From an uncultured Pseudomonadota bacterium (GTDB lineage: Bacteria; Pseudomonadota; Gammaproteobacteria; Steroidobacterales; Steroidobacteraceae), in the NCBI GenBank assembly GCA_903832085.1, contig CAIKZZ010000021.1:1-64000 (forward strand): 64,000 nucleotides of DNA. Reading direction: 5' to 3'. How positions within the stretch are numbered: the first letter of the stretch is position 1; the number at the start of each line of letters is the position of its first letter. Shown here one piece after another: positions 33,075 through 51,843 of this stretch. Under the pieces are notes generated by a model. That model searched no databases, was not told the DNA's origin, and saw only the letters and a program-made list of their open reading frames with translations. The translations under genes were made by a program, and so were the position numbers.

Positions 33075-33536
33075 TTACACCGGCGTCCGGCGCACCAGCC
33101 ACGCATCCAATCGCCCGGCAAAGGCTTTGCGATCCGCCTGTGACAAAGGCGGCGGGCCACCACCCACCACACCACTAGCGCGCATTGTGTCCATAAAATC
33201 ACGCATCGTTAAAATGCCGCGAATGGTGTTGGCCGTGTAGAGCTCGCCGCGCGGATTAAGTGCCACGGCCCCTTTCTCCAGCACCTCCGCCGCCAAGGGA
33301 ATGTCGGCTGTAATCACCAGATCTCCCGCGGCCACCCGTTTGACGATCTCGTTATCCGCCACATCAAAGCCTTGCGCGACTTGCACACAGCTTAGGCCCG
33401 AAACGCGTGGGATCGACAGCGGCTGGTTCGCGACCAAGGTCACAGCGACCCCCGTACGCTCACACGCCCGATACAACATCTCTTTAATGACGTTCGGGCA
33501 CGCATCGGCATCCACCCAGATTGCCACCGCCCTCAT
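33075..33536 (-). CDS. yaiI: YaiI/YqxD family protein (DUF188, PIN-like)
   Basis: A 153-residue protein with [19 protein letters not shown] at the N-terminus, followed by [17 protein letters not shown] and [15 protein letters not shown]. These acidic motifs mark the UPF0178/DUF188 family, predicted NYN/PIN-like nucleases of unknown role. Its ATG at 33536 overlaps the stop of the KfrA-like gene (ATGA), so the two are translationally coupled although one looks chromosomal and the other plasmid-like. Confidence 0.88.
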
Positions 33537-33988
33537 GGCGGGACATCCGCAAGCAAGGCTTCGAGTCGGCTGATGCGCGCATGCGCGCTCGCCAGTGCCC
33601 GCGCCAGATCCGTCACCCGTTGTTGCGCGATCTCAAGGTCACGGGCGGCTGACTCCAAACCAGCCAGTCGCGTGCGCAATGCATCCGTTTCCCGTGCCCA
33701 GCGCTCTTGGTGCACGCGCTCGCGCGCTTCGGCCCGCTCTGCGCGCAACGTCGCCTGCACATCAGGGCCATCCGATCCTACCTCCGCCCGTAGACCCGGA
33801 CGCAGCAGCGCGGCACGCTCACGCCGAAACGCCTGCAGCACGCGATAAATGCGCGCCACGCCGCCTCGCACCCCGTGGCGCTTGGAGAGCTCGTCGCGCA
33901 CCGCCACCCCCGTGACGCGCGCGCCAGTCGCGGCCAGGTCGCGAATCACGGCGTGAATGGCAGGTTCGGTCACTCGGACAGGGCGCAT
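33533..33988 (-). CDS. KfrA-like DNA-binding protein with C-terminal coiled coil
   Basis: A 151-residue protein. The N-terminal region ([29 protein letters not shown]...[13 protein letters not shown]) matches the KfrA_N helix-turn-helix domain of plasmid proteins. The rest is Arg/Glu/Ala-rich heptads (about residues 75-150), a coiled coil. KfrA of IncP plasmids represses its own gene and aids segregation, working beside ParAB-type proteins. Here it lies 276 bases from parB on the same strand, with a 22-base palindrome 17 bases upstream of its ATG. KfrA-like genes also exist on chromosomes. Confidence 0.75.
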
Positions 33989-34005
33989 ACGGACAGTGTA
34001 CCTTT

Positions 34006-34264: not shown

Positions 34265-35242
34265 CTACCCGAGGTCCTTGAGAATCTGTTCCATCGCTTG
34301 CACCACCGCCTCGCGATCCTGTGGGCCTAGCCCTTTGGGAAAGGCAACGGTCACCTTGCCGCGCGCATTGCGGACCAAGATCGCGCGGCCCACCTTGCCC
34401 ACGTTGTACTCGCGGCGGATCGGCGGCAACTTGCGGGATTGATCCAAGCTCGACAGCAACGCTTTGAGGATGGACCGTGGATCTCGAGCGCCCTCCTCCT
34501 CGCGCCGCGCGAGATTCTTGGCCGCCTGCAGCACCACATCTTTGGCACCAGGCCGCTCCATCAAGGACGCCAGCTTATAGGCCTGATCCACCGGGATGGC
34601 CGATCGATCCAACATGAGCCCCGCGATCGCACCGTGGTTGAGTAGCTGGGTGGCTTTGAGCATCTTTGCCACCTGCCCTTTCGAGACATTGAGCGCAGTG
34701 GCCAATGCATCCTGAGTGGCAAAAACCCGCGCATCCAGCTGTGTTTGAAACGACAGCGCCCGCTCCATCGGGGTGATGTCCTGCCGGTCGGCGTTCTCCA
34801 AATGCATCAGCACCGCCGCCTGACTGTCGTCAATATCAACCACCCGCACCTTCAATTTGGTGTTGGTGGCCTCACACGCATAGCGCCGGCGCATGCCATA
34901 AATCAGCTCATAATCAAACTCCGGATCGCCCACGAGGCGCCGTGCCAACGCCGGCTCCTGCTGGCCATCTTTGGGGATCGATCGAATCAAATCCTCGCAC
35001 CTCTCCGGCGTATACCAAGCCGCCGTGCGGTTATGGTATTTCCAGCCACGGCAGCGCTTAGGCTCCACGCTTAAAACCGTTTCCCGCGTCAGTCCCGGGC
35101 TCGTGCGCCCCTGCAAAGCCAGTTCCGCCGTCGGTAAAACCGCCCGATTTCCGGGTCGCTCGATGACCGTTTCACTGCGCTCGCGCACGGAATTGGCGAT
35201 ATCTCCCAATCGCGCACCCCCGAATAATCCTTTCTTCGTCAT
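34265..35242 (-). CDS. parB: ParB-family partition protein (plasmid type)
   Basis: A 325-residue ParB/RepB-like protein. The N-terminal ParB CTPase/nuclease-like domain has LIYGMRRRYAC (box II-like GxRRxxA) and LMHLENADRQDITPMERA. The HTH follows as ALATALNVSKGQVAKMLKATQLL. It binds parS and loads onto DNA to be moved by ParA. ATG 35242. It lies 21 bases below parA, forming a parAB operon. The plasmid-type (type Ia) character is supported by the HTH-bearing ParA. Confidence 0.88.
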   Translation of the reverse strand: MTKKGLFGGARLGDIANSVRERSETVIERPGNRAVLPTAELALQGRTSPGLTRETVLSVEPKRCRGWKYHNRTAAWYTPERCEDLIRSIPKDGQQEPALARRLVGDPEFDYELIYGMRRRYACEATNTKLKVRVVDIDDSQAAVLMHLENADRQDITPMERALSFQTQLDARVFATQDALATALNVSKGQVAKMLKATQLLNHGAIAGLMLDRSAIPVDQAYKLASLMERPGAKDVVLQAAKNLARREEEGARDPRSILKALLSSLDQSRKLPPIRREYNVGKVGRAILVRNARGKVTVAFPKGLGPQDREAVVQAMEQILKDLG

Positions 35243-35263: not shown

Positions 35264-36466
35264 TTAGATAATCCCTTTTGCATTGAGCGCGGCTTGCTTC
35301 GACGGCCACTCCCGCAGAATGGCCAACTCAATCTCGCCAAAGACCCCATCCATCATTTCCAGTACTTTGCGGTTGGGTTTGATTTGCTCGTACGGACCGA
35401 TGAACTGGGCCGATGCATTAATCACCTCGGCTGCATGGAAGAACACGCGCTGAAAGACCGACTCACCAAAGCAGGCCCGCATCACGTCCACAAACTGCCG
35501 CTGACTGTCGTAGCGTTGGTCAAATAACGTGGTCAACACCGAAATCCATCGGTAGTTTTTCTCAGGCGCCAACTGCGCCACATAGGTGCGAATCATGCGA
35601 AAGAATTGCACCGTGGAGGAAAAGTCGAACATCTTGGCCGCTGTCGGCACCACCAGCGCATCGGCCGCCACCAACACATTCAGTGAAATCACCCCAAGCG
35701 CCGGTGGCGAATCGAGCAACACCACATCGTAATTGCCCGCCACCGACTGAATGCCGTAACTCAATTCGGCAAACACCGCCCGGCGCGCCTCCGGGGTCGT
35801 CTGCTCGGCAATGTGCAGGACCAGCGCAATCTCTGCCTCGTACAGCGCCAAACACGCCGGAATCAAGTCAATCCCTTCAAAGTACGTCTTGCGAATGACT
35901 GTTTCGAGCGTGGGCTGCCCACCCCCAAGATAGGCCAAAATTGTGTCTTCTTGGGTGATTTCCGCATCCGGTACATATCCAAACATCGATGTGGTGGTCG
36001 CCTGACTATCGGTATCGATCACCAGCACCCGATAGCCCTTCAGCGCCAGGTAATGGGCCAGATTGATGCAGCTAGTCGACTTCCCCACCCCGCCTTTGAA
36101 GTTCTGACAGGCAATGACCATCGGCTGATCGCGCTCGGGATCCCGGTGTGGCGATGTCCCAAAATGCTGCCGAAAGGCCTCGATTTGGCTGAGCGTGTAC
36201 CCGACCCGCCGGTTGTTCTCGGGGTTACGGGCCGGCAACTCAATCCCTAACTCCGCTTCGGCACGCGCAAGCGTCGTGCGATCCCTCCCGACCATCGCAG
36301 CGGCTTCCGATGGGCTGAACAAGCGCTGCAGGGATTTGCGCGCATGCGGGGATTGGCCCATCTCGTGCATCTTGTCGAGAAAGTTTTCGCTGTAAGCGAG
36401 TATTGCATCAAGCTTGTCAATAGCGGGCGTCGCTGGCACACTGCTCTCCCGGAATGGTTGGTCCAC
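35264..36466 (-). CDS. parA: ParA-family partition ATPase, type Ia
   Basis: A 400-residue protein. The N-terminal about 105 residues contain a MerR-like HTH (FSPSEAAAMVGRDRTTLARAEAELG) as in P1 ParA-type proteins that repress their own promoter. The deviant Walker A is KGGVGKST (124-131), Walker A' VIDTDSQATTT and Walker B VVLLDSPPALG. It starts with GTG at 36466 in a 64-base gap shared with the divergent repA. Its HTH probably acts on that gap. Confidence 0.9.
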   Translation of the reverse strand: MDQPFRESSVPATPAIDKLDAILAYSENFLDKMHEMGQSPHARKSLQRLFSPSEAAAMVGRDRTTLARAEAELGIELPARNPENNRRVGYTLSQIEAFRQHFGTSPHRDPERDQPMVIACQNFKGGVGKSTSCINLAHYLALKGYRVLVIDTDSQATTTSMFGYVPDAEITQEDTILAYLGGGQPTLETVIRKTYFEGIDLIPACLALYEAEIALVLHIAEQTTPEARRAVFAELSYGIQSVAGNYDVVLLDSPPALGVISLNVLVAADALVVPTAAKMFDFSSTVQFFRMIRTYVAQLAPEKNYRWISVLTTLFDQRYDSQRQFVDVMRACFGESVFQRVFFHAAEVINASAQFIGPYEQIKPNRKVLEMMDGVFGEIELAILREWPSKQAALNAKGII

Positions 36467-36528: not shown

Positions 36529-36530
36529 AC

Positions 36531-37634
36531 GTGAGCCCTGCTCCGCCACCGGAAACCGACCTCATCGCACGAATGCAGCGATACAGTGCCGCAGGATACT
36601 CGCGCGCGCGCATGTTGGCTCAACTTGTTAGTGACGGAGTATCGCCCCTATTACTCGCGCCACATTTTCCTGACTTCCCCACAGCGGCCTTTCAAAAAGT
36701 CCAGCTACCCGGTCCCCGAGGAATCACGCCACGCGCGCTCGTCCCCAAAGCGCCCGCAACGCTCGCCGCATCAACTGCGCGCCTGGTGCCATCGGCGGTA
36801 TCCGCAGCATCCGTCGTGGCGCCGGTGGAAGAGGGCATCTCATTTCATTACGTGCCCTTGATTCAATGTTCGTTCCCGCACGCGGACCCAGCGACACTCA
36901 CCAGTTTTACCCGTAAAAATGGCTGGCTCGAACTGACTCTAGGCACCACACGTCCGGAAACCGGCTTGCCCTACGGTGTGCCCGCACGACTGCTAACCAT
37001 TTATTGCGCCAGTGAAGCGGTGCGCACGCGCTCACCAGAGATTTATCTCGGCCGGTCTGTACATGAATTCTTGCGGATTCTGGACGTGCCCATTACCCGT
37101 GGCGATCGCGGCAGTCTGCGCGTCTATGCCAATCAGTTATTGCGGCTGATTCACTGCACGCTGTCGATCGACGAGAACATCCGTGACGACAGCGGCCGCA
37201 CGGGATTGCACATCCGCCAAGCCTTGTTCGCCGAAGAAGCGCGTTTGTGGTGGGACGAAGCACAAGGGATAGGGCAGGGCAGTTCCTTGCAACTATCGAG
37301 CGTCTTGTTTCACTCGATCCTCGAACGCGCAGCGCCCCTTGCCACCCACGCGATCAAGCAGCTGCGCAAAAGCCCAATGGACTTGGATGTCTATGCATGG
37401 CTAGTGCATCGCTTGTTTCATTTAAGTCGCCCAAGCAATGTCAGCTGGCAACAACTGTCCGAGCAGTTTGGCCACGCGTATGCAGAGCTAAGACAGTTCA
37501 AACGCTTTTTCCTCGACTCCTTACAGCGCGTGCGGGCGGTGTATCCCGCGGCTAACCTGACCGTGACGGAATCAGGACTGCTGTTGCTACCCTCACGACC
37601 GCACCTCGCACGCCGGCTGACGGCGAAGCGCTGA
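36531..37634 (+). CDS. repA: plasmid RepA-family replication initiator
   Basis: A 367-residue protein of the Plasmid_RepA (RPA, PF04796) type. The family core LPYGVPARLLTIYCASEAVRTRSPEIYLGRSVHEFLRILDVP is followed by LLRLIHCTLSI and SPMDLDVYAWLVHRLFHL, then the WQQLSEQFG region with predicted winged-helix. It would bind an origin and start replication. The N-terminal about 110 residues are Ala/Pro-rich and not conserved. GTG start at 36531, divergent from parA. A replication gene in a chromosomal setting is the strongest sign of plasmid ancestry here. Confidence 0.85.
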   Translation: MSPAPPPETDLIARMQRYSAAGYSRARMLAQLVSDGVSPLLLAPHFPDFPTAAFQKVQLPGPRGITPRALVPKAPATLAASTARLVPSAVSAASVVAPVEEGISFHYVPLIQCSFPHADPATLTSFTRKNGWLELTLGTTRPETGLPYGVPARLLTIYCASEAVRTRSPEIYLGRSVHEFLRILDVPITRGDRGSLRVYANQLLRLIHCTLSIDENIRDDSGRTGLHIRQALFAEEARLWWDEAQGIGQGSSLQLSSVLFHSILERAAPLATHAIKQLRKSPMDLDVYAWLVHRLFHLSRPSNVSWQQLSEQFGHAYAELRQFKRFFLDSLQRVRAVYPAANLTVTESGLLLLPSRPHLARRLTAKR

Positions 37635-38046
37635 GACGCACAACGGTCCGCGCGTTACAACTCTCACGCTTTTTCGCATGGAGGGCGGCCATAAATAGCA
37701 AAAACCTGCGTAAATTCAGTGCCTTTGCGCGTGACCCTATGGGGGCGTCGCATCTCTCACGCCAATCTTTTATGTCATTGTATTTATTGGGTTTATTCGC
37801 CGTGCGATCGTGCTTCATGCCACACACAGCCGTCACATCACTCACGCTTGAGCGTCGCAACACTGGCGAAAAAGCGCCGCAACTCGCGCACAAGAGCGTG
37901 GCATCACTCCGCGAAAAGTCTTTTTCTTCATTACAATCAGTAGGTTAAAAGAACCCCCTGTATCTCCTGTATTACCTATAAAACTCCTTATAGGCTTTAG
38001 GAGTGGTACAACCACAGCCAGCCCCCCGAGAGAGCCTAAACCCTCC
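37635..38046. other. 412-base non-coding region after repA, candidate origin or regulatory region
   Basis: No convincing gene. Degenerate related 14-mers recur at 37657 (acaactctcacgct), 37750 (gcatctctcacgcc), 37835 (acatcactcacgct) and 37901 (gcatcactccgcga). CGCTTTTTCGC at 37667-37677 has its exact inverse complement at 37866-37876. A/T-rich runs lie between. Before paiB a stem-loop CCTATAA-AACTCC-TTATAGG spans 37975-37994. Repeats plus A/T stretches next to repA suggest an origin (oriV), though spacing is not that of tandem iterons. Confidence 0.4.
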
Positions 38047-38670
38047 ATGTACAGACCTGCCCATTTTGCTGCCGATGAACAAGACCAACTCCATGCGTTT
38101 ATAGAGGCGCATCCTTTAGGAAGCCTCGTGGTGCAGACCAGCGCAGGGCTCATCGCAAACCATCTCCCCATGTTGTGGGAGCCCAGTGGCACACACGGAC
38201 TTTTGCATGGCCACATCGCGCGCGCCAACACACTGTGGCGTGCGGTTACCGCAGCAAGTCCAGTGCTTGTCCTGTTTGGCGGGGCGAGCGCCTATATCAC
38301 TCCCTCGTGGTATCCGAGCAAACAAGCCACCGGCCAAGTGGTGCCGACCTGGAACTATTCAGTGGTGCACGCACACGGCACGATCGAGTTTTTCGATGCC
38401 CCTGATCGGTTACTGCCATTAGTGACACGACTCACCAACCAGCACGAATCCCGCCGCGCAGACCCATGGGCAGTCAGTGATGCACCGAGCGATTACATCG
38501 ACACAATGCTGCGCGCCATTGTTGGTTTTGAGATTCGTGTGGAACGACTCGAGGGCAAGTTTAAGGCAAGTCAGAATCGAGACCAGGCAGATCGGCAGGG
38601 CGTCGTGCGCGGGTTAGCCGCGGCGGGGATGACTGATGCGGATTGCGCTGAACTCGTCCGCGATCCGTAA
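38047..38670 (+). CDS. paiB: PaiB-family FMN-binding regulator-like protein
   Basis: A 207-residue protein matching the FMN_bind_2/PaiB family: MYRPAHFAADEQDQLHAFIEAHPLGSLV, NHLPMLWE, LHGHIARANTLWR, YITPSWYPSKQATGQVVPTWNYSVVHAHG. PaiB was described in Bacillus as a negative regulator paired with PaiA; the fold is a split-barrel flavin binder. A hairpin lies 53 bases upstream. It is followed after 19 bases by a GNAT acetyltransferase, reproducing the paiAB pair. It lies between plasmid replication and mobilisation genes, so it is probably cargo. Confidence 0.88.
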   Translation: MYRPAHFAADEQDQLHAFIEAHPLGSLVVQTSAGLIANHLPMLWEPSGTHGLLHGHIARANTLWRAVTAASPVLVLFGGASAYITPSWYPSKQATGQVVPTWNYSVVHAHGTIEFFDAPDRLLPLVTRLTNQHESRRADPWAVSDAPSDYIDTMLRAIVGFEIRVERLEGKFKASQNRDQADRQGVVRGLAAAGMTDADCAELVRDP

Positions 38671-38689
38671 AGATCCATGTGAGGGCATC

Positions 38690-39217
38690 ATGGCACTTAC
38701 GTTTCTGACGTGCGCACTCACGGATGTTGATCAGCTACGCGCTGTCGCCATGCGCTGTTATACGCCGTACTACGCACATCTTTGGGAAGAGGGGGGCCTC
38801 GAACAGTATCTAGCGAGCACCTATAGTACGGAACGGCTAGTGGCAGAACTCAGTGATCCAAATGTCTATTACGAGCTCGCACTACACCACGGGGTCGCGG
38901 TAGCCTTTTCCAAATCCGTGCGCCACTGTGATCAAGCACCAATTATGAACGCCGCCTATCTTGAGCGTGTGTACGTGGTGCCCGATATGTTGGGACACCG
39001 AGTCGGGCAGGCGCTGATCGAGCGCGTCATTAAACGCGCGCACCGCGATGGCCGTACGAGGGTGTGGTTACAAGCCATGGCAGAGGCGAGCGCACCGCTG
39101 CGGCGGTATCGCGAACTTGGTTTTACAGTGTGTGGCAGCACGACTCTGGTACAGCCATCCGTGCGTGCAGATCTCACCGCGATGCATATCCTTGTGAAAG
39201 ACCTCTCGCATCCTTAA
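38690..39217 (+). CDS. paiA: GNAT acetyltransferase, PaiA-like polyamine N-acetyltransferase
   Basis: A 175-residue GNAT protein. The acetyl-CoA-binding motif A is LERVYVVPDMLGHRVGQALIERVI. The N-terminus (LTFLTCALTDVDQLRAVAMRCYTPYYAHLWEEGGLEQYL) and the RYRELGF end match PaiA-like spermidine/spermine acetyltransferases. ATG at 38690 is preferred because GAGGG lies 4-5 bases upstream; a longer frame begins at 38636 inside paiB. Pairing with paiB supports the call; activity on polyamines is inferred from the family. Confidence 0.8.
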   Translation: MALTFLTCALTDVDQLRAVAMRCYTPYYAHLWEEGGLEQYLASTYSTERLVAELSDPNVYYELALHHGVAVAFSKSVRHCDQAPIMNAAYLERVYVVPDMLGHRVGQALIERVIKRAHRDGRTRVWLQAMAEASAPLRRYRELGFTVCGSTTLVQPSVRADLTAMHILVKDLSHP

Positions 39218-39333: not shown

Positions 39334-40263
39334 GTGGCTATCTTGCACCTTCAGGTAAAGTCGCTCTCACGAGCGAAAGGGCACAACGCAGTGCAGCGTT
39401 CTGCCTACATCACGCGCGGCCGGTTGCGCGACGAGCACACGCACAAACTGCACAACTACCAAAAACGCGGCGGTTTGGAACACACGGAGATTATTCTGCC
39501 AACGGTGGCACGTGCCGCAGGGGTTACCTGGGCACAGGATCGCGCCATGTTGTGGAATACGGCCGAAGCCGTCGAGTCACGTAAAAACGCACGCGTCGGG
39601 CGTGAGTATGTCATTGCACTCCCGCACGAACTCGGAACGAAGCCGCAATTGGTGTTAGCACAAACCTTTGCTGCCGCGCTGGCGAATCGTTACGGCGTGG
39701 TCGCAGAACTTGCGATTCATCGCGCCCCAGCCTTGGGGGATCGTCGTAATACGCATGCGCATATTTTGAGTACCACGCGAACCGTGAGCGCGACCGGACT
39801 CGGCGCTAAAAGTGTGATGGAGTGGAATGATTCCGCGCGTCGCGGCGTAGGCCTCCCCAGCAGCCGTGAAGAAATTCGACTGCTGCGACACGCGTGGGCA
39901 GGATACGTGAATCACGCACTCGAGTTGGCTGAGCTCAATGTGCGAGTGGATGCCAGATCCTTGTGGGAGCAGGGTAGTGCCCGAGTGCCGACACCAGCAC
40001 TGACACCTGCCATCATTGCACTCGAGCGCGCCGGGAAGACATCGTATGTCGCTGAGCACTTACGTGCCCAGCATGCCGAGCAGCAGCAGATCATGGATGC
40101 GTATGTCGCACAACGCAGTCTTGCGACCCAAATAGTCACTACGCAAGGGGTCAGTACGCAGGCGCAGGCGCGATGGCTCGCATACCGGTCTGCCGGTCGT
40201 GTACCAACGACTGTCCGCAGCAAGACCGCAGAGGCGGATTACACCTTGGATATGGATCTGTGA
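39334..40263 (+). CDS. mobA: MobA/MobL-type (MobQ) relaxase
   Basis: A 309-residue relaxase domain. Tyr25 in RSAYITRGR fits the nucleophile position of R1162/RSF1010 MobA. HTHKLHNYQKRGGLEHTEIILP is the family signature. The His cluster His129 with NTHAHIL (His141, His143) forms the metal site. It would nick oriT and lead the strand into the T4SS. The protein has no primase or helicase domain and is shorter than many relatives. GTG start at 39334. Its last 25 bases overlap the convergent gene 40239-40889. The coupling protein it needs is not seen. Confidence 0.85.
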   Translation: MAILHLQVKSLSRAKGHNAVQRSAYITRGRLRDEHTHKLHNYQKRGGLEHTEIILPTVARAAGVTWAQDRAMLWNTAEAVESRKNARVGREYVIALPHELGTKPQLVLAQTFAAALANRYGVVAELAIHRAPALGDRRNTHAHILSTTRTVSATGLGAKSVMEWNDSARRGVGLPSSREEIRLLRHAWAGYVNHALELAELNVRVDARSLWEQGSARVPTPALTPAIIALERAGKTSYVAEHLRAQHAEQQQIMDAYVAQRSLATQIVTTQGVSTQAQARWLAYRSAGRVPTTVRSKTAEADYTLDMDL

Positions 40264-40889
40264 GGCAGCGCAAACGTCATGCTGTCAAATAGCTGACTCC
40301 CGAGCCACCAGCCACCGGCGCTAGCCGTAAATGGCGCATCGACGTAGCACAAGGTGATATGCTTTGCTTGCTCGGGGGTGAGCGGCATGAAGCCGTAGCC
40401 CAATTCGCTGAATACAGCGGTGTCGTTCAGTTGCAGGCCGCAGTAGTGGCACACGTTCAGCCAGTGATATGCATCCAATCCGCGGTCATAACACAATCGA
40501 TACGTGTCAGTGACCGACCGCATTCGCTCCATAGGCTCGAGACTGAGGCAGTCAATGTGGTACACGAACGTGGGGGAATCGTCCGCTTCCTCCCAGTAGT
40601 CCTCACCACTTTCATCGTCGGTATTCAGAGCTTCATAACCTGCCGGTAGAGCAAAGCCATGTACGTGGGTTATCCCACGACACCGCCAGCAACAAAACGG
40701 AGTGGTGGCGACAAAGTATCCAGGGGCGCGAATATTGCACTCTAGCCCTGCAACGAGCCAGGCCGCGAAGGGCATCGGGTCACTGCCCGCCGGCACCTGC
40801 CACAGTTGACGTTCGGTATTCCACAGCGCGCCGAGCGCGCGTGCGCGATCAACCTCATCAGGGGGCACACACAGATCGAGTACCAGCAT
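40239..40889 (-). CDS. DUF5710-like protein with cysteine clusters, function unknown
   Basis: A 216-residue protein. The N-terminal about 35 residues (VDRARALGALWNTERQLWQVP) fit the short DUF5710 motif found in plasmid-borne enzymes. Then come CCWRC and CHYC cysteine pairs about 90 residues apart, a possible zinc site, with an acidic stretch NTDDESGEDYWEEADD between. I do not know a function for the whole protein. It is convergent with the relaxase gene and last of a four-gene minus-strand block. A nucleic-acid-related role is guessed from the shared motif with the neighbouring exonuclease. Confidence 0.65.
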   Translation of the reverse strand: MLVLDLCVPPDEVDRARALGALWNTERQLWQVPAGSDPMPFAAWLVAGLECNIRAPGYFVATTPFCCWRCRGITHVHGFALPAGYEALNTDDESGEDYWEEADDSPTFVYHIDCLSLEPMERMRSVTDTYRLCYDRGLDAYHWLNVCHYCGLQLNDTAVFSELGYGFMPLTPEQAKHITLCYVDAPFTASAGGWWLGSQLFDSMTFALPHRSISKV

Positions 40890-41919: not shown

Positions 41920-41991
41920 GCTGAATGACTCTGATGAGACAAGGCTACCGAGACTACGTGGCGTTGGTGTTAGGTGCAATAGGGAGACGCA

Positions 41992-43521: not shown

Positions 43522-43522
43522 G

Positions 43523-43906: not shown

Positions 43907-46344
43907 CGTCCCGCTTGTTAGCAAAAGAGCCTGGCCCGGCCTCACACACACCGTATCGCGCTTTGCTGTCTGAGCATGTCGCGGTCACTAGTGCTGGGGA
44001 TTATCTGGTGACGTGGCGTTTGCGGGGCACCCATTTTGAATGTGTGGATGACGCTGCGCTGAACAGTACGCACGAACGCTTGAACGTATGGTTACGCAAT
44101 TTAGCGAGCCCTGATCTTGCACTCTGGACGCACATTGTTCGCCGGCAAGTCAACGTGCCAATTCCTAGTCGTGACGGAAGTGGTTTTGCGGATCAGCTAC
44201 ACACTCACTACACCGAGTCCCTTGCGCGGGAGGCCTTATGGACTAATGAGCTGTATCTGACACTGGTCTATCGGCCGGCGGGCATGCGAGTCACGACCAA
44301 CTTGCTTAGCCTGATTACGAGACGTCATGATTTAGAGAAGCCGCTGGATTCGCAAGAGCATTTGAGCACGATCGCTAAACTCACCACCCAAGTGGAAGCT
44401 GCACTTGCTGAGTGTGAACCGCGGTTGCTCGGCGTTTACAAACACGAAGGGCGGCTCTATTCGGAGTTGCTGGAGTTCCTAGCCACGCTTATCAACGGCG
44501 AGTGGCAACGGATGCCGATTCCGCGCGCAGACCTGTGTGAGGCGTTGCAAACAAGTCGTGTGTTGGTCGGATGGGAAACCATTGAATATCGCACCCCAAC
44601 GCAGACTCGGTTTGGAGCCTGTTTAGGGATCAAGGAATACCCCAATCCAACAGCACCGGGGGCACTCGACAGATTGCTTAAAGTGCCTTTTGCGTTTGTC
44701 TTAACGCAGAGCTTCACCTTTATCCCGAAGGCGACAGCGATGGGGATGCTCTCGCGTCAGTTGCACCGCCTAAGTAATGCCGCGGACCCCGCCGTGTCGC
44801 AGGCGCGTGCCCTGCAAGTTGCCGCGGATCAGCTCGCGAGTAACGAGTTTGTGATGGGGGACCATCACATGACTCTGCAAGTACTGACGGCTCCCGCAAG
44901 TGCGGTCGCTGACACGTCTGGCATGTTGCTTGCGCAACTTGAGCAGCATATTAGCGCAGTACGCAGCATTTTAAGTGATAGCGGTATGGTAGTTGCCCGC
45001 GAGGATCTTGCGCTTGGTGCGGCCTTTTGGGCGCAGCTACCCGCGCAGTTCACGCTACGCCCACGACGAGCGCCCATCACGTCCAGAAATTTCTGTGGGC
45101 TCAATTCGTTTCATCACTATCCACAAGGGCGTCCCATTGGCAACTATTGGGGCGATGCCCTAGCCACACTGCGCACGCGCGCAGAGTCGCCGTATTTCTT
45201 CTCCTTGCATGCTAGTGACCCAACCGACACAACCGGCAGCTCTAGACGCGATACGGGACACACACTTATCTGTGGGCCGACTGGGTCCGGCAAAACCGTG
45301 TTCATGGCATTTTGTATTGCGATGCTGCGGCGCGCCGGGGCGACACAGGTTGTGTTTGACAAAGACCGAGGCCTTGAAATCCTCGTACGAGCGCTGAACG
45401 GTACGTATCTGGCCTTTCCGCGCGGGATGAGCACGGGCTGCAACCCGCTGCAGTTGGATGACACGCACAGCAATCGGGCGTTTTTGCGTTCGTGGCTACG
45501 CGAGCTGGTCGGAAGCACCGTAAGACCACTCACAAGCAAAGAGGAGCAGGACGTCGATCGCGCACTCGCTGGTGTCATGGCCTTGGATAAACCCTACAGA
45601 CGACTGTCGCGACTGATTGAGTTTTTAGACCCGACCGAACAGGGGGGTCTGTACCAACGACTCGGGCGCTGGAGCGCTCATTGTGAAGGGGAGTTGGCGT
45701 ACATATTTGATAACCCGGTGGATACCATTGCCGCACATTGCTCGCTGACACCGCTCCTGGCATTTGATATGACACATATCCTCCCTGATGCCACGATCCG
45801 GCGACCCCTGACCCAGTACCTCTTCTACCTAGTCGAGCAGTTGCTCGATGGCCGGCGCTTAGTGACGTGGTTGGATGAGTTCTCAAAGCTGATTGAGGAT
45901 CCGGCATTTCAGTCACTCACAGTGGATGGTCTTAAAACCTGGCGTAAGCGCAACGGCGTCCTTGCTTTTGCGACACAAAGTCCTAGTGATGTCACGGCAA
46001 GTCCGCTCGCCCGTACGATCATTGAGCAAACTCCGACGAAAATCTTTTTCCCAAATAAAGAGGTAGGCCGGGAGGACTGCATCAGTGCGTTTGGCTTAAG
46101 TGTGCGTGAGTTTGCGCTTCTGTCTACACACCTTGCCGCGTCCCCTCGGAGTTTTTTAATCAAGCAAACCCATGCAAGCGTCGTTGCAAGTTTAGATCTC
46201 AGTGCATTGCCGGCAGCACTGCGCGTGCTATCGGCGCGCACCCAAACACTCAGTGAGCTCAGCGCACTACTGCGCGCCCATGGAGATGAATCAGCCGCGT
46301 GGCTCCCGTATTTTTTGGCAGCTAACGCTGGAGCACAGTCATGA
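43894..46344 (+). CDS. virB4: VirB4-family T4SS ATPase
   Basis: An 816-residue ATPase of the VirB4/TrbE/CagE type. The N-terminal CagE domain contains GTHFECVDD, and the C-terminal AAA-like domain has Walker A GPTGSGKT (461-468) and Walker B LVTWLDEFSKL, then AFATQSPSD and EQTPTKIFFPNKEV. It powers pilus assembly and substrate transfer at the inner membrane. It is full length with all motifs intact. It overlaps virB3 upstream and virB5 downstream (ATGA). Confidence 0.94.
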   Translation: MSSLASRLLAKEPGPASHTPYRALLSEHVAVTSAGDYLVTWRLRGTHFECVDDAALNSTHERLNVWLRNLASPDLALWTHIVRRQVNVPIPSRDGSGFADQLHTHYTESLAREALWTNELYLTLVYRPAGMRVTTNLLSLITRRHDLEKPLDSQEHLSTIAKLTTQVEAALAECEPRLLGVYKHEGRLYSELLEFLATLINGEWQRMPIPRADLCEALQTSRVLVGWETIEYRTPTQTRFGACLGIKEYPNPTAPGALDRLLKVPFAFVLTQSFTFIPKATAMGMLSRQLHRLSNAADPAVSQARALQVAADQLASNEFVMGDHHMTLQVLTAPASAVADTSGMLLAQLEQHISAVRSILSDSGMVVAREDLALGAAFWAQLPAQFTLRPRRAPITSRNFCGLNSFHHYPQGRPIGNYWGDALATLRTRAESPYFFSLHASDPTDTTGSSRRDTGHTLICGPTGSGKTVFMAFCIAMLRRAGATQVVFDKDRGLEILVRALNGTYLAFPRGMSTGCNPLQLDDTHSNRAFLRSWLRELVGSTVRPLTSKEEQDVDRALAGVMALDKPYRRLSRLIEFLDPTEQGGLYQRLGRWSAHCEGELAYIFDNPVDTIAAHCSLTPLLAFDMTHILPDATIRRPLTQYLFYLVEQLLDGRRLVTWLDEFSKLIEDPAFQSLTVDGLKTWRKRNGVLAFATQSPSDVTASPLARTIIEQTPTKIFFPNKEVGREDCISAFGLSVREFALLSTHLAASPRSFLIKQTHASVVASLDLSALPAALRVLSARTQTLSELSALLRAHGDESAAWLPYFLAANAGAQS

Positions 46345-47078
46345 GACAACGCATGCGGCGCTACTCGCTACGCCTTGCACTCGGATGCCTTTTGCTGATC
46401 GGCGCTACGATTCCTGCGTTCGCTACGATTCCCGTCATTGATTTTGCAGCACTTGCACAGCTTGCAAAACAGGTTAGTGCATGGCAACAGCAGTTAGCTG
46501 CGATGCAGCAGCAGCTGGACCAGTTGCATACAACGAGTGCTGCGATCACTGGCAATCGGGGTCTTGGCGAGCTGCTGCCAATCTCCGTTGTGGCCCGTAA
46601 TTATTTACCGCCCGATTGGACAACGCTTGCAACGTTGTATGACGGCACCAATACAAGTTATCAGAGCCTGCAGTCCATGGCCACGGGTATCAAACAAACG
46701 AATAGGATCTTACAGTCCAACGATCTTGCGCGACTGCCACAGACAGTGCAGAGCGTACTGGCCGCAGAGCGTGGCACGGTTGCGGGCAATCAAGCGCTCA
46801 TGCGCCAAGCGTACGCGAATCAGAGTGCCCGCTTCGCAGATTTGCAGACCTTGATCGCAGCCATTGGTACCACCACGGATATCAAAGCAATCAATGAATT
46901 AAACACGCGTATCGGTGCTGAGCGTGCAATGCTTCTCAATGAGAGTGTAAAGATTGCAAGTCTTGCGCAAATCGCATCGACCGACAGCGCCGCGCGAGAG
47001 CTACAACGGCGTGAGCTGGTGATGGCCGGACACGGCTCATTCGTCACCCGCTTCCAACCCGTTGCGCCGACACCCTGA
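46341..47078 (+). CDS. virB5: VirB5-family T4SS minor pilin
   Basis: A 245-residue protein with a signal peptide (LALGCLLLIGATIPAFA). The mature part starts TIPVIDFAALAQLAKQVSAWQQQLAAMQQQLDQL, the long helical start typical of VirB5 proteins, and continues mainly alpha-helical to FQPVAPTP. It sits at the pilus tip. Its start overlaps the virB4 stop by 4 bases, and its stop shares one base with virB6 (TGATG). Confidence 0.83.
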   Translation: MRQRMRRYSLRLALGCLLLIGATIPAFATIPVIDFAALAQLAKQVSAWQQQLAAMQQQLDQLHTTSAAITGNRGLGELLPISVVARNYLPPDWTTLATLYDGTNTSYQSLQSMATGIKQTNRILQSNDLARLPQTVQSVLAAERGTVAGNQALMRQAYANQSARFADLQTLIAAIGTTTDIKAINELNTRIGAERAMLLNESVKIASLAQIASTDSAARELQRRELVMAGHGSFVTRFQPVAPTP

Positions 47079-48031
47079 TGTTGTTCGCCACCTTTTGGGC
47101 ATGGCTCAGTGATCGGCTGACCACCTACATCAGTACGCAGGCCGCCAATACCGCGCAGGCGCTCGAGCCCGCGGCCGTCACCTTTGGCGCCGTTTACGTC
47201 ATGTTGTGGGGTTTTCTACATCTGCGTGGCCAAATCGAGGAGCCGATCACCCAAGGACTGGTGCGAATTCTCACCTTGATTGCTGTGTTTGGCATTGGGC
47301 TGCACTTGTGGCTCTATCACGACTTGCTTGTCGATACCTTCTTTACTGCCCCCGCACAGTTTGCTGCGCAACTCATTGGCGGGGCCGAGCCAGTCAGGAT
47401 GATTGACCAAATTTGGGATCACGGTGGACGCGTGGCCGCTGCCTTGTGGGATCGTGCGGGCCTCCTCTCTGGCGATCCTGGTTTTTATCTCGCCGCCCTT
47501 GGTGTTTATCTGACCGTGGGCCTTATGTGCGTCTACACGATGTTTTTAATTTCACTGTCGCGTATCGCGCTTGCGGTGCTGCTAGCTTTGGGCCCGCTAT
47601 TTATTGTCATGACATTGTTCCAGCCTACACGGCGCTACTTTGATAGCTGGATCAGTGAGCTTACCAATTATGCACTGGTAACAATCCTGACAATTATGCT
47701 CTGCAGCTTGATGCTCAGTTTTGTCGATGCGTTTGCAGCTCAGACGGCAGCGCGAGGTGCTGAGATGGCAAGCGTCGATGCCATTAATCTGGTGCTCGTG
47801 ACAGCCTTAGTCTCGCTGGTGATGCGCCAGGTGCTGCCTATCAGTGCCCGACTTGCTGGAGGCAGTGCGTTATCGACACTTGGCGCATGGAGCGCCGTCA
47901 CGCAAGGCGCGCGGACCGCTGCGCGCACCACGAGAGCGTATGTGGCAAGCGTCTTTGACTCAGGCGATGACGAATTGGCTGCGCCACTCAGTGAACCCGC
48001 AACGACACACTATGTTGGAGAACGCGAATGA
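47078..48031 (+). CDS. virB6: VirB6-family T4SS polytopic membrane protein
   Basis: A 317-residue inner-membrane protein with about five to six hydrophobic segments, for example FGAVYVMLWGFLHL, LIAVFGIGLHLWLY, YLTVGLMCVYTMFLISLSRIALAVLLALGPLFIVMTLF and YALVTILTIMLCSLML. The central region SRIALAVLLALGPLFI...PTRRYFDSWISEL is the conserved TrbL/VirB6 signature. It forms the inner-membrane channel. It overlaps the small lipoprotein gene by 4 bases at its end. Confidence 0.87.
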   Translation: MLFATFWAWLSDRLTTYISTQAANTAQALEPAAVTFGAVYVMLWGFLHLRGQIEEPITQGLVRILTLIAVFGIGLHLWLYHDLLVDTFFTAPAQFAAQLIGGAEPVRMIDQIWDHGGRVAAALWDRAGLLSGDPGFYLAALGVYLTVGLMCVYTMFLISLSRIALAVLLALGPLFIVMTLFQPTRRYFDSWISELTNYALVTILTIMLCSLMLSFVDAFAAQTAARGAEMASVDAINLVLVTALVSLVMRQVLPISARLAGGSALSTLGAWSAVTQGARTAARTTRAYVASVFDSGDDELAAPLSEPATTHYVGERE

Positions 48032-48165
48032 AGTCGATGGCAATAACACTGCTTGGCTGCTTTGGACTGATGTTTGGCGGCTGCGCCCATGTCACCCCAT
48101 TGCCAGTCTGTCATGGTCCGGCGAGCCCAATAAATGCGCCACTGACGGTGCCGGCCCATGACTGA
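48028..48165 (+). CDS. virB7: VirB7-like small lipoprotein
   Basis: A 45-residue peptide: a signal sequence (SMAITLLGCFGLMFGGC) ends in a lipobox-like FGGC with the lipidated Cys at 19, followed by a short mature part holding a second Cys (VCHGP). This is the usual make-up of VirB7, which links to VirB9 by a disulfide and anchors the outer-membrane ring. Its ATG overlaps the virB6 stop (ATGA) and its end overlaps virB8 by 8 bases. The lipobox lacks the usual Leu at -3, so the call is moderately certain. Confidence 0.75.
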   Translation: MKSMAITLLGCFGLMFGGCAHVTPLPVCHGPASPINAPLTVPAHD

Positions 48166-48889
48166 GTCAATCGAGGACTATTTTTCAGAAGCAAATCGTT
48201 GGCAACGCGATCGCACGACACAGTTACTACGCGATGCGCGCCGCGCCTGGCAGGTCGCACTCAGTGGCGTGACCGTGGCCGCGTTATCACTGGGGGCACT
48301 GCTTGTATTGCTGCCGTTAAAGCGCACAGAGCCATACCTCATTCGCGTTGATGCCGCTGATGGGACGGTAGACGTGGTGCCACGGTATGTGCCGACGATG
48401 GAGCTTCCAGAAGCTGTCACTCGGCATCTGGTGACAGAGTATGTCATGGCGCGTGAGCGCTACGTGGCCGCCTTCGCAGAAAGCGACTATCGGCAGGTGA
48501 GCGCTTATCACTCGGCAGCCATGAATCAATCCTGGTCCACGTTGTGGGCGCGTGGCAATCCTGACTCACCCCTCAATCGTTACTCGGAGAGTACAAGACT
48601 ACGGGTACGCGTGAATGCGGTGTCTTTTCTAAAACGCGTGACTGGTGAGCCCATGACAGTGCAAGTGCGCTTTGAGACGGGCCTGACCAATATGATAGGT
48701 GCGGCCGAGGATCGGCATCAGTTCGTGGCGACCTTGCAGGCAAGTTATATCGAGCCTGCATCGGATGCGGAAACGCGTGCGTTAAATCCATTGGGGTTTC
48801 GGGTACTCGAGTATCGTCGAGAACCGGAAACGCTAAATCCCCCGAGTCAATTACAGACGTCGAATAACACCACGTGGATTGGGAAGTAA
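48158..48889 (+). CDS. virB8: VirB8-family T4SS assembly factor
   Basis: A 243-residue bitopic protein. The cytoplasmic start ESIEDYFSEANRWQRDRT, the membrane helix WQVALSGVTVAALSLGALLVLLPL and the periplasmic NTF2-like domain (EPYLIRVDAADGTVDVVPR, YVMARERYVAAF, VRFETGL) match VirB8. It nucleates assembly between inner- and outer-membrane parts. Position right after virB7 follows the Agrobacterium order. Confidence 0.9.
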   Translation: MTESIEDYFSEANRWQRDRTTQLLRDARRAWQVALSGVTVAALSLGALLVLLPLKRTEPYLIRVDAADGTVDVVPRYVPTMELPEAVTRHLVTEYVMARERYVAAFAESDYRQVSAYHSAAMNQSWSTLWARGNPDSPLNRYSESTRLRVRVNAVSFLKRVTGEPMTVQVRFETGLTNMIGAAEDRHQFVATLQASYIEPASDAETRALNPLGFRVLEYRREPETLNPPSQLQTSNNTTWIGK

Positions 48890-48894
48890 GCAGC

Positions 48895-49704
48895 ATGCGT
48901 CACATGACTAGAGAACCACGACATCACATCCTCTCATTGTGCTGCATGTGGGCATGCATCATCGGCTGGCTACCCACAATGGTTTGTGCCGAGACGGACA
49001 GTAGGGTACGTCTTGTACAGTATGACGCCAACGCTGTTGTGCCGATTGTCGCTTTTATGGGCTACCACATTCACTTTGCGTTTGCGCCGGATGAGTATTT
49101 TACGACGCTGGGCGCTGGCAATACCGCGGCACTGGATGTGGCATCCGAAGGCAATCACTTGTTGCTAAAACCAAAGCAAGCAATGAATGGCACCAATCTG
49201 ACATTGATTACGACGAAGCATGTTTATTATCTGGACTTTAAAGTCCTAGCGCGGGCACCCAAGCCCTCTGAGGCCGTGTACTCCGTCGTGTTTCAGTACC
49301 CGTCGGCCCCAATTGCGCTCGGTGAGGACCACTCGCGCGATGCCTCCATCACCTTGAATACCTTGCCGGCGATTTCTAATCGCGATTACTGGTATTGCGG
49401 CAGCCCAGAGCTGCGCCCGGTATCGGCGGTGGACGATGGGACCCAGATGCGCCTGACTTTCGCGCCCCAAGCTGAGATACCGGCTCTGTATATCCACAAC
49501 CCAGACGGAAGTGAGTCACTAGTGAATAGCCATGTAGAGGAAGACACCGTGATTATTCATCACTTAGCAGCGCAATTGGTGCTACGTCGCGGGCCATTGG
49601 TAGGCTGTGTTGTTAATAAGGCTGACACACCCCCACAACAGCGCGCAGTGAGCGGCACATTATTGCACGCGATCAAGCGCGTTGTTATAGGGGCATCCAC
49701 ATGA
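48895..49704 (+). CDS. virB9: VirB9-family T4SS outer-membrane complex protein
   Basis: A 269-residue protein with a signal peptide (CCMWACIIGWLPTMVCAE). The N-terminal beta domain SRVRLVQYDANAVVPIVAFMGYHIHFAFAPDE and the VFQYP segment are typical of VirB9/TrbG, as is the C-terminal RLTFAPQAEIPALYIHNPDGSE. It forms the outer-membrane core ring with VirB7 and VirB10. ATG at 48895 follows the virB8 stop; an earlier in-frame start would overlap virB8. It overlaps virB10 by 4 bases. Confidence 0.88.
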   Translation: MRHMTREPRHHILSLCCMWACIIGWLPTMVCAETDSRVRLVQYDANAVVPIVAFMGYHIHFAFAPDEYFTTLGAGNTAALDVASEGNHLLLKPKQAMNGTNLTLITTKHVYYLDFKVLARAPKPSEAVYSVVFQYPSAPIALGEDHSRDASITLNTLPAISNRDYWYCGSPELRPVSAVDDGTQMRLTFAPQAEIPALYIHNPDGSESLVNSHVEEDTVIIHHLAAQLVLRRGPLVGCVVNKADTPPQQRAVSGTLLHAIKRVVIGAST

Positions 49705-50846
49705 GCGACACTCAAGCTGTTTCAGGCGAGCGCACGGTGGCCGCGGTGACACGGCGTGTGTCACTTGCGATGCGCATCCAGCAACGTTTGTGGATTGTGT
49801 TTTTAATGCTCTCAGCACTTGCGACACTCGGTTTATATTACGTGAGCGCGAGTCATCGAACGCATTCCCCAAGGAGTGCGCGTGCGCACCCGTCGACGAA
49901 TGGCGCTGAGTCAGCTCTACCGGCATTTCCGTTGGACAGCGCACCAGATGTGCTGCTTGGGCTGGTGCGCACCGCGCGAGCGGACGAGGGCCCCCGTGCC
50001 ACAGCCGCGCACCGTGAGGACCTCGGTGCACTGGATGTCCCCACGACGATTCCGACGCCGCCCACGCAAACCCGTGCTGCGGCAGAGTCTCCCGTTGCTA
50101 TTCGGACGACAGCGCGACCACTGCAAACTCAACCATCTAGCACAGCGAATGAACCGGAAGCAGAAGGTGAGCGCGGTGAGGGCGTGATGAACAACGCGCT
50201 ACCCGTATCAGGTGGGCTCAAGAGCATAAATACCACCAGTGGGTTGTTCGCTGTCCAGGCACAGCATCGACCGGGCCTGCGCTTCATACTGCCGAAGGGG
50301 TCCTCCCTTGATTGCACCCTGGAAACAGCCATTGATTCGACACTGGTGGGGATGACGACCTGTGTGCTTGCGGCAGATGTCTTTGGAGCAGATGGTCGCA
50401 TCGTTTTACTTGAGCGGGGGACACAGCTCATTGGCGAGATGAGTGGTGAATTACGGGTAGGTCAAGCGCGTGTCGCGATTCTTTGGAATGAGGCGCGCAC
50501 ACCCACAGGCGTGTTGGTGCCACTGGTGTCGCCAGGCACCGATGCCCTCGGTCGCAGCGGGGTCTCTGGGGATATCGATACGCATACGAAGGACCGGTTC
50601 GGGGCAGCCGTGATGTTGAGTCTGCTCGATGGCACCATGCAAGCGGTTGCCAGACGCCAGCAGGGTGTGGGGGCGCTGATCTACGCTGCACCGGCCTCAC
50701 GCGACATTGCGACGGAGGTTCTGCATAACACGTTGCGCATCCCGCCCACGCTACGCGTGAATCCAGGGACGCGCATTCAGGTACTCGTCGCGCGGGATAT
50801 CGATTTTCAGACAGTGTATCGGTTGGTTGCTCGTGACCCGTCTTGA
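49701..50846 (+). CDS. virB10: VirB10-family T4SS channel protein
   Basis: A 381-residue protein. An N-terminal cytoplasmic basic part and membrane helix (LWIVFLMLSALATLGLYYVS) precede a Pro/Ala/Thr-rich linker (about 55-160). The beta-barrel TrbI domain has LPKGSSLDCTLETAIDSTLVGMTTCVL, DGRIVLLERGTQLIGE, GALGRSGVSG-like and RIPPTLRVNPGTRIQVLVARDIDF. It spans from inner to outer membrane. Start overlaps virB9 stop (ATGA). Confidence 0.92.
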   Translation: MSDTQAVSGERTVAAVTRRVSLAMRIQQRLWIVFLMLSALATLGLYYVSASHRTHSPRSARAHPSTNGAESALPAFPLDSAPDVLLGLVRTARADEGPRATAAHREDLGALDVPTTIPTPPTQTRAAAESPVAIRTTARPLQTQPSSTANEPEAEGERGEGVMNNALPVSGGLKSINTTSGLFAVQAQHRPGLRFILPKGSSLDCTLETAIDSTLVGMTTCVLAADVFGADGRIVLLERGTQLIGEMSGELRVGQARVAILWNEARTPTGVLVPLVSPGTDALGRSGVSGDIDTHTKDRFGAAVMLSLLDGTMQAVARRQQGVGALIYAAPASRDIATEVLHNTLRIPPTLRVNPGTRIQVLVARDIDFQTVYRLVARDPS

Positions 50847-51843
50847 GTCTCTCGGCGATCAGCCGTCGTCGCTGGCGCATTATAGCCGTGAGCTGCTACA
50901 GATCTTATCGGATGCCACTGTCACGGAAGTGTGTTTGCAGCGTAGTGGCGAGTTATTAATAGAGCGCACGGGCGGCTGGACCCGCGAGCTTGCCGTTTGG
51001 GCGAGTGTTAGTTGGGCGCGTCAGTTCGCACAATTACTCGCAACCGCCTCGGAGCAGCGGGTCAGTGCGCCACAACCCTTGCTATCGGCCGCACTACCCA
51101 CGGGTGAGCGAGTCCAGATTGTGTTGCCTCCAGCGACTTGGCCTGATCAGGTGGTTATGGCGATACGGCGTGCGAGTAGTAGTCAGTGGTCGTTGGATGA
51201 CTTGGCGCGGACGGGCGTTTTTGGAACTGCGGGAGTGGAGCGTGACGTGGTTGCTGAAAGCTGCCGACTGGCTGATTATTATGCGAGTGCGAACTGGCGC
51301 GAGTTCTTAAGCCTAGCAGTCAAGCGGCGGTTGAACATCATTGTGTCTGGGGCGACGGGGTCTGGAAAAACAACGCTCACGAAAGCGTTGATCCGCGAAA
51401 TCCCCCTTGATGAGCGCCTCATTAGTATTGAGGATGCGGCCGAACTGGTGTTCGATCGCCACATCAATGTGGCACGGCTCTTCTATTCGAAGAATGGACA
51501 AGGTGTGGCGCAAGTGACCCCAAAGCAACTGCTAGAGGCAAGTCTACGGTTACGCCCAGACCGCGTGCTGTTGGCCGAGCTGCGTGGTGAGGAGGCCTAT
51601 TATTTTCTGCGTAACGTCAGCTCCGGACACCCAGGGTCTATTACCAGTGTGCACGCCGGCTCGCCAGAACTGGCCTTTGCGCAGCTGGCACTACTCATTA
51701 AAGAAAGTCAGCCCGGTGCGGAACTGGGGATAGCAGACATTGATCGACTGTTAAAAAAGACCATCGATGTGATCGTGCAGTGTGAACGCGCCGCTGGCAT
51801 CCGTCGCGTGGCAAGGGTCTGGTGGCGGGATGCAAACTGCTGA
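50833..51843 (+). CDS. virB11: VirB11-family T4SS ATPase
   Basis: A 336-residue hexameric ATPase. Walker A GATGSGKTT is at about 173-181, the Asp box SIEDAAELVF, Walker B LRPDRVLLAELRGEEAY and the His box SGHPGSITSVHAG follow. The N-terminal domain (LLIERTGGW...) is typical. GTG 50833 is preferred; a TTG two codons upstream is also open. Both lie inside the end of virB10. It is the last T4SS gene; virD4, expected nearby, is absent. Confidence 0.92.
   Translation: MTRLESLGDQPSSLAHYSRELLQILSDATVTEVCLQRSGELLIERTGGWTRELAVWASVSWARQFAQLLATASEQRVSAPQPLLSAALPTGERVQIVLPPATWPDQVVMAIRRASSSQWSLDDLARTGVFGTAGVERDVVAESCRLADYYASANWREFLSLAVKRRLNIIVSGATGSGKTTLTKALIREIPLDERLISIEDAAELVFDRHINVARLFYSKNGQGVAQVTPKQLLEASLRLRPDRVLLAELRGEEAYYFLRNVSSGHPGSITSVHAGSPELAFAQLALLIKESQPGAELGIADIDRLLKKTIDVIVQCERAAGIRRVARVWWRDANC

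Follow-up and report, generated by a model that had tools for sequence, protein, structure and literature searches.

The DNA analysed here comprises the first 64,000 bases (the window) of contig C21 (CAIKZZ010000021.1; 139,834 bp), taken from the draft assembly GCA_903832085.1 of an uncultured member of the Steroidobacteraceae (genome G000; 48 contigs, 2,649,145 bp). Its central part contains a replication and partition cassette, consisting of parB, parA and the initiator gene repA, which is bordered on the left by a kfrA-like gene and on the right by genes for a GNAT acetyltransferase, a MobQ-type relaxase, a DUF5710 protein, an exonuclease and a type IV secretion (virB) cluster (Table 1). 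Genes were named by Pfam and NCBIfam profile scans of open reading frames (ORFs), and all genomes used for comparison are drafts, metagenome-assembled or unnamed. A first-pass annotation made from the sequence alone had placed repA, parA, parB, a KfrA-like gene, a MobQ relaxase and virB2-B11 between metabolic genes. The scans confirmed the first five of these, with the KfrA_N and MobQ matches below their cut-offs, and recognised virB2-B6 and virB8-B11; neither VirB1 nor VirB7 was recognised among the ORFs scanned. The metabolic flanks were likewise borne out, with CysNC, CysD, CobT, CobS and GlcD/E/F-like proteins encoded there. The repA product is the sole RepA_C match in the G000 genome. ParA of the window shares 83-89% identity with its counterparts in 10 congeners, and ParB shares 78-83% with the homologous copies compared within the genus and 64% with that of G027, a member of another genus.

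Comparison with the congeners indicated that the cassette at this place differs between species. In 14 of the 15 genomes of the genus, one of two unrelated cassettes was found at one site beside kfrA, namely the interval between kfrA and the GNAT/relaxase/DUF5710/exonuclease genes. The cassette of the window, termed type B (repA with its RepA_C initiator, parAB and iterons), occupies the site in nine genomes (G000, G003, G004, G005, G006, G008, G009, G013 and G014). The other, termed type A, consists of the genes X, parB and parA on one strand in the order parA-parB-X and occupies the site in five (G001, G007, G010, G011 and G012). The ParA proteins of the two types share only 32-35% identity. 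Orthologs of kfrA and of the GNAT gene adjoin cassettes of both types in congeners. Beside the cassettes of G003, G009 and G013 no GNAT gene was seen, and beside those of G006, G009 and G014 no relaxase gene. In all 14 cassette-bearing genomes, the contig with the cassette also includes one or both of the backbone flanks, and in nine it includes both (G000, G006, G007, G008, G010, G011, G012, G013 and G014); in the remaining five, the assembly is broken so that a single flank is left or, in G009, the two halves are on separate contigs. The left order cysNC-cysD-OCD-DAO-FAA hydrolase-kfrA and the right order GNAT-relaxase-DUF5710-exonuclease-virB, the latter followed by EamA-HutD, are kept in congeners as far as the contigs reach. 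A 20-bp palindrome next to kfrA, TTACGGAAANNTTTCCGTAA, which is a possible KfrA operator, has counterparts at the equivalent position of replicons of both types, and also 3' of parB on separate type B replicons described below. At up to 4 mismatches it was present in 15 of the 18 sequences scanned, two of which are the same contig; its rarity in the window is no test, because the pattern was read off this site.

On a GyrB tree, the type A hosts were split into {G001, G010, G012} and {G007, G011}. Approximately unbiased (AU) tests on GyrB rejected a single clade of type A hosts (p 0.001) and a single clade of type B hosts (p 0.007), for groups that had been chosen after a first tree had been seen, which counts against them. 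Nine concatenated backbone proteins also rejected a single type A clade (p 0.00014), and the starred branches of the backbone tree force two changes. Since the type A hosts do not form one clade in these tests, at least two cassette changes are needed. The backbone tree joined G000 (type B) with G007 and G011 (type A) at 100/100, and the same group was recovered at 91/86 on GyrB. Also common to both trees were (G007,G011), (G008,(G004,G005)), (G009,(G006,G014)) and (G003,G013), a recurrence expected from vertical descent. Four GyrB sequences deserve a remark in their own right: G012 and G019 gave partial matches, and in L236 (G010:C2:746742-750896) and L237 (G011:C67:122649-126572) the match is split near residue 496-500 by an intein-like insert, within one long open frame (>1,300 amino acids).

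Just 3' of repA in the window lie four iteron-like repeats. With up to 3 mismatches allowed, their consensus matched six sites of the window, four after repA and two elsewhere, against an expectation of 0.75, which has to be weighed in the light of the consensus having been read off these same copies. Among relatives, 3 to 6 repeats were found 3' of repA in 14 of 16 (up to 4 mismatches), in comparison to 0.15 per kb across the whole loci. The first spacings are 93 + 83-86 bp in eight loci, 104 + 72-73 bp in four and different in two, and are followed in most loci by steps of 22 or 44 bp. Judged by its sequence, the type B cassette thus appears to have the layout of an iteron-type replicon, an initiator gene beside a directly repeated array, and the repeats probably represent the anatomy of an iteron origin with a putative oriV function.

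The third gene of the type A cassette encodes a protein of 319-331 amino acids, here called X, which is a candidate initiator. No match above 12.4 bits was obtained for X in Pfam, RP-C included (two copies searched), and none in NCBIfam (one copy), in PHROG (two copies) or among 72,556 plasmids (one copy); nor was there a credible match to solved structures (PDB). Two candidate affiliations were rejected by hhalign: a distant RepA_C homolog scored a probability of 0.1%, and eight X sequences against two RepC scored 1%, so that the RepC-family trait of repABC replicons was not recovered. A draw of 396 genomes from the order contained X in 11, with short matches in two of these; X was not found when sought in G000. 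Type A ParA and ParB (one cassette, G010) came nearest to RepA and RepB of RepABC systems, both below the cut-offs (TIGR03453, 285 of 348 bits; TIGR03454, 101 of 201.5 bits).

The spacer between parB and X was examined in 11 copies (five carried at the kfrA site, six elsewhere; three further X copies were left out). All 11 contain GGAG and, within 15 bases, ATG, four codons and a stop, i.e. a five-codon leader ORF, a count made without a chance model, with a second overlapping ATG frame in G012. A GGCCCC-type hairpin lies 21-22 bases after the leader ATG in all 11 as well. Perfect palindromes of 14-24 bp stand upstream of the leader in eight of the 11 spacers, and in G007, G012 and G001 the copies of the form found at the kfrA site, termed the chromid form, are near-perfect. 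Five palindrome cores were distinguished, namely the chromid form, that of G008:C33 and G011:C16, that of G004, that of G016 and G236, and that of G276. The cassettes away from the site (L239, L240, L241, L229, L230 and L232) have the same spacer layout with several palindrome cores, a set that offers a natural series for work on partition specificity. The antisense strand of the spacer is conserved at 90% mean identity in five, and its hairpin folds better than shuffled sequences (z -4.2 to -5.5) in four of the five chromid copies. It also matched the Rfam family RF00489 (ctRNA_p42d) at the expected place and on the expected strand, at a sub-threshold 21.6 of 50 bits (E 0.3) and as one of six sub-threshold matches of like score. 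Speaking against an antisense RNA, covariation was detected in 1 of 59 pairs, with an unfavourable covariation term, and promoter and terminator scans flagged neither a promoter nor the antisense hairpin as a terminator. A TTGACC-17-TAACCT pair was noted by eye.

Both cassette types were present, on separate contigs, in 4 of 14 genomes (G004, G007, G008 and G011). G007:C204 and G011:C82 carry a type B cassette, with RepA 82-83% identical to that of the window, the closest of those compared. A type A cassette is the second one on G008:C33 and G004:C109, and G011 has more type A copies on C16 and C2; G007 lay outside the genome draw used to find type A copies. The contigs G007:C204 (L145, L146) and G011:C82 (L090-L098) represent one collinear second large replicon, 21 of the 23 ORFs of C204 having a match on C82. 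A kfrA match was sought in the 20-kb loci around these separate type B cassettes and none was found; a copy of the kfrA-side palindrome, with 2-3 mismatches, lies about 220-250 bp 3' of parB. Type B may have been displaced from the chromid to the C204/C82 replicon, taking its kfrA-side edge along; alternatively, the parB-side palindrome may be a partition site. A derivation of the separate replicon from the chromid by gene content was considered and found unsupported, as 4 of 142 ORFs of G011:C82 match C21 at 50% identity or more, the cassette genes included.

The type A copies at the kfrA site are closely related to one another, with 89-95% (ParA) and 83-89% (ParB) identity to G011, whereas copies on other contigs share 41-49% (ParA, three copies) and 40-46% (ParB, six copies) with it. 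X separates less, at 64-72% for copies at the site vs 48-64% elsewhere. On G008:C33 (L239), ParA and ParB are only 41-44% identical to those of G011 and X is close, which indicates that type A units, too, are mosaics, with apparent recombination between X and parAB.

We regard it as an even call that the whole initiator-plus-partition cassette has been exchanged more than once at one fixed site of an ancient chromid, with co-resident replicons as the source of spare cassettes. The exchange would be between the iteron RepA type and a new replicon class of the order parA-parB-X, in which X would form a new protein family, parS-like palindromes would exist in several versions, and an antisense RNA with the five-codon leader would govern expression. 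In type B, RepA would bind the iterons just 3' of its own gene and open the origin, ParAB would segregate the replicon, and KfrA may bind the palindrome. In type A, antisense control of X with translational coupling to the leader is likely, and partition would depend on ParB acting on the spacer palindromes. The relaxase and the VirB system, together with a coupling protein encoded on a contig of the same composition, could move the replicon. Exchange most likely took place by way of a cointegrate, in which the chromid was fused with a co-resident plasmid and from which one cassette was then lost, and unrelated rep/par genes would give compatibility of the co-resident replicons. Several observations weigh against repeated exchange. 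The starred branches of the GyrB tree alone do not force two changes; the deep GyrB branches are unsupported, and the GyrB sequence of G012 is 39% filled. The X protein on G008:C33 is as close to that of G011, at 64% identity, as the site-borne X of G001 is. No iterons follow repA at L051 (G013), nor at L050, at up to 4 mismatches.

The most serious alternative, although a doubtful one, dispenses with any swap: an ancestor would have had both cassettes, whether on a single replicon or on two, and the lineages would each have kept one at this site. The identities of type A ParA to G011 resemble those of type B ParA to G000 across the genus (83-89%); both types may therefore be as old as the genus, and the coexistence of both in four assemblies points the same way. 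Against it, each cassette occupies the same interval and no contig was seen that holds both. Furthermore, the type B cassette adjoins virB in G027 of another genus, and this pairing is a weak indication that type B is the older of the two.

The second component of the preferred reading, that C21 is part of a secondary replicon (a chromid or chromid-like megaplasmid of about 0.36 Mb) with an old, largely vertically inherited body and an exchangeable cassette, is likely. The cumulative GC skew of the whole of C21 has its minimum at 38465, 831 bp from the end of repA (37634), and rises afterwards. Across seven RepA-bearing contigs, i.e. C21 and six further ones (G008C20, G014C32, G027C33, G011C82, G013C28 and G006C22; GC 55-69%), the minima lie 0.8-19.3 kb from repA, with a combined P of 2e-7 against shuffles of 2-kb blocks. 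The position is individually below 0.05 in four of the seven. Plasmid-type replication and partition genes, a trait of chromids, are present as RepA_C, ParA and ParB, and the chromosomal markers lie elsewhere (dnaA and gyrB on C40, rpoB on C46). Composition was placed on a tetranucleotide axis with 0 set by stretches of the chromosomal contigs C40, C28 and C12 and 1 by C21; it is a rough axis, which C21 helped to define, with 39 other contigs sampled, about 5 kb being taken from each of 20, and eight contigs outside the sample. On it, 20-kb pieces of C21 scored 0.78-1.17, five of the 39 sampled contigs (C3, C9, C26, C27 and C43) scored 1.0-1.24, and C4, C36, C32, C41, C2 and C16 were intermediate (0.48-0.65). 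By rough estimate, C21 and the five similar contigs amount to about 360 kb of C21-like composition. Whereas the relaxase and VirB genes are on C21, the coupling protein (TrwB/VirD4 type, 316 bits) is encoded outside the window on one of these contigs (G000:C26:8464-10020).

Searches of relatives gave the following distribution. RepA was found in 13 of the 60 genomes searched, G000 included, comprising 11 of the 15 genomes of the genus, G027 and a distant 31% match in G040. Type B ParA at 83% identity or more was present in 11, VirB4 in 14 and CysD in 13 of the 15, the last in one copy each. No cysD was found in G003.

Other results count against a conserved chromid. The skew position is not significant alone in G014C32 (0.42), G011C82 (0.054) and G006C22 (0.11). 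As to type A replicons, samples of G010:C14 show positive skew after 660 kb, with a return to negative values at 900 kb and 1 Mb. For G011:C57, no skew minimum was seen at the cassette in a stretch of 80 kb. The GC content of C21 is 57.2% vs 55.6% in the remaining contigs taken together, with C3, C9 and C26 among them; this gap is beyond the 1% rule for chromids as given in the available part of one source (PMC12456017) and within the 2.5% rule in that of another (PMC9025767). Closing C21 by end overlap did not succeed, the outer 2 kb of its ends having no 16-mer in common in the same orientation, and its circularity and size are presumed. In addition, cysD and the cassette share a contig in 6 of the 13 cysD-bearing genomes. 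The cobST genes are at the same place in G011 only and on none of six other congener contigs compared, and glcDEF are on none of six congener contigs compared. G002 lacks every marker searched (RepA, type B ParA, CysD, VirB4 and X). The G002 bin does contain GyrB; the replicon was either lost or is missing from the bin.

Calling the replicon an ordinary megaplasmid instead of a chromid would be a change of label that overlaps with the secondary-replicon reading, and we think it unlikely to be the better label. It would agree with a GC content 1.6 points above the pooled contigs, with the retained type IV secretion system and relaxase, and with the absence of the replicon from the G002 bin; VirB4 in 14 and cysD in 13 of the 15 genomes speak against it, as does the recurrence of the backbone groups on GyrB, the deeper branches of which are unsupported. 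The first-pass annotation had offered three origins, i.e. plasmid integration, an integrative conjugative element (ICE) that keeps a replicon, and a large secondary replicon, of which the last is supported and the other two are not. Integration of a plasmid into the main chromosome with rep, par, mob and virB retained is very improbable. The metabolic flanks and the single copy of cysD in G000 would suit it, but the skew minimum lies near repA in several species, the near flanks form a backbone with the cassette in congeners, and the composition of C21 is unlike that of the dnaA contig. A location inside a chromosome was an interpretation and not an observation. The empty site proposed between the yaiI-like and EamA genes was found in none of the congener contigs compared. 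Relatives with the same genes in the same place, an outcome that the annotation had allowed for, were largely found, the exceptions being cobST and glcDEF. An artefact of binning or assembly, by which contigs of different organisms were joined, is similarly hard to credit: the genomes are drafts throughout, with G002 lacking the replicon and G003 lacking cysD, but the same arrangement appears in independent assemblies of several projects, and the replicon and GyrB trees agree on species groups. An ICE is the least credible of all, for although a relaxase, a VirB system and a coupling protein exist, the contig has no tRNA, no integrase was seen among the scanned ORFs of 33-53 kb (no systematic integrase search was made), and the gene order of virB, EamA and the left flank is shared across species, no boundary being visible in it.

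Table 1 Features of the window around the replication and partition cassette and its flanks.
Feature	Position	Strand	Evidence and remarks
ABC-F-type ATPase, 2OG oxygenase, cysNC, cysD and ornithine cyclodeaminase-like genes	18485..25789	.	Pfam; left backbone
cobT and cobS, cobaltochelatase genes	25766..28623	-	Pfam CobT_C 306 bits, CobS_N 36 bits
DAO oxidoreductase, FAA hydrolase, MazG-like and YaiI-family genes	28756..33536	-	Left backbone; partly collinear in several congeners
kfrA-like gene	33533..33988	-	Pfam KfrA_N 23.7 bits, cut-off 26.1; left edge of cassette
20-bp palindrome TTACGGAAANNTTTCCGTAA	34007..34026	.	Possible KfrA operator
parB (type B cassette)	34265..35242	-	TIGR00180 89.9 bits
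parA (type B cassette)	35264..36466	-	Pfam AAA_31 129 bits
repA, RepA_C-family replication initiator (type B cassette)	36531..37634	+	PF04796 68.6 bits, cut-off 26
Iteron-like repeats, probable oriV	37652..37869	+	Starts 37652, 37745, 37830, 37852; just 3' of repA
GNAT acetyltransferase gene	38636..39217	+	Pfam PF00583; usual right edge of cassette site
MobQ-type relaxase (MobA/MobL)	39334..40263	+	PF03389 163.7 bits; NF041496 (NCBIfam MobQ) 182.5 bits, cut-off 200
DUF5710 protein	40239..40889	-	PF18974 37.8 bits; backbone, order conserved in congeners
RNase_T-type exonuclease	41002..41979	-	PF00929 55.2 bits; backbone, order conserved in congeners
virB2-virB3-virB4-virB5-virB6-virB8-virB9-virB10-virB11, type IV secretion cluster	43237..51843	+	Pfam TrbC, VirB3, CagE_TrbE_VirB, T4SS, TrbL, VirB8, CagX, TrbI, T2SSE
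EamA transporter and HutD-like genes	51897..53413	+	Backbone right of virB; same place in G008, G010, G011, G013

In the remainder of the window and contig, the gene block from the ABC-F-type ATPase to the ornithine cyclodeaminase-like genes is collinear in G006, G008, G010 and G011 and partly so in G013 and G014. ARAGORN found no tRNA in the window or the rest of C21, and an Rfam scan of the window at gathering scores gave no match. Relatives of RepA and X were sought in viral contigs and none was found. A sarcosine-oxidase-like gene set, named by eye, lies at G000:C21:65469-70618 and is conserved on the RepA contigs G008C20, G013C28 and G014C32. An ORF resembling a site-specific recombinase by eye (G000:C21:134773-135912) could serve dimer resolution or integration, and the start of a transposase-like ORF, again recognised by eye, stands at the contig end (G000:C21:139780-139834), which is perhaps why the assembly stopped there.

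Replication genes are a common basis for classifying chromids and following their descent. Such typing would misread chromid ancestry if a replicon can exchange its rep/par cassette and otherwise be inherited vertically, and one could then study how a large replicon gains a new origin without being lost. Should the type A cassette prove functional, it would represent a repABC-like replicon from outside the Alphaproteobacteria with an undescribed initiator family. Chromids known at the time of a review were of the iteron or repABC type, with repABC only in Alphaproteobacteria, according to its available part (PMC6090056). No earlier report of a cassette swap on a chromid was found in the open-licence PMC literature, among the matches listed.

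The following comparisons draw on the accessible portions of the papers cited. The chromids of Pseudoalteromonas and Vibrio resemble the replicon described here in having a plasmid-type initiator and ParAB beside the origin, in their genus-wide occurrence and in a replicon phylogeny that follows that of the chromosome (PMC7858055, PMC6090056). In contrast, they have one initiator each, whereas here one site carries different cassettes in different species. The RepABC-8 chromids of Sulfitobacter (201-268 kb) are likewise syntenic and common to related species; they are of one replication type and the chromids of the studied strains lack transfer genes (PMC9025767), whereas a relaxase and VirB system are present here and the replication type changes. 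Type A resembles the repABC operons of Alphaproteobacteria in the arrangement of its genes (parA, parB and a third gene), in its palindromes and in an antisense-RNA-like element of the spacer between parB and that third gene (PMC3155836, PMC6090056). It differs in its host, which is probably gammaproteobacterial, in X being without a RepC match, in the sub-threshold ctRNA_p42d score and in the five-codon leader before the hairpin. In the REx-C/REx-R modules of Pseudomonas plasmids, replication modules are likewise exchanged, with a putative antisense RNA and a leader peptide (PMC5304414). However, what recombines there are plasmid control and initiator modules, whereas here a whole initiator and partition cassette differs on a large conserved replicon. 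Finally, pMM259 of Martelella acquired two replication systems on one replicon by fusion (PMC5613091) and keeps both, whereas each replicon seen here has one of the two at a fixed site.

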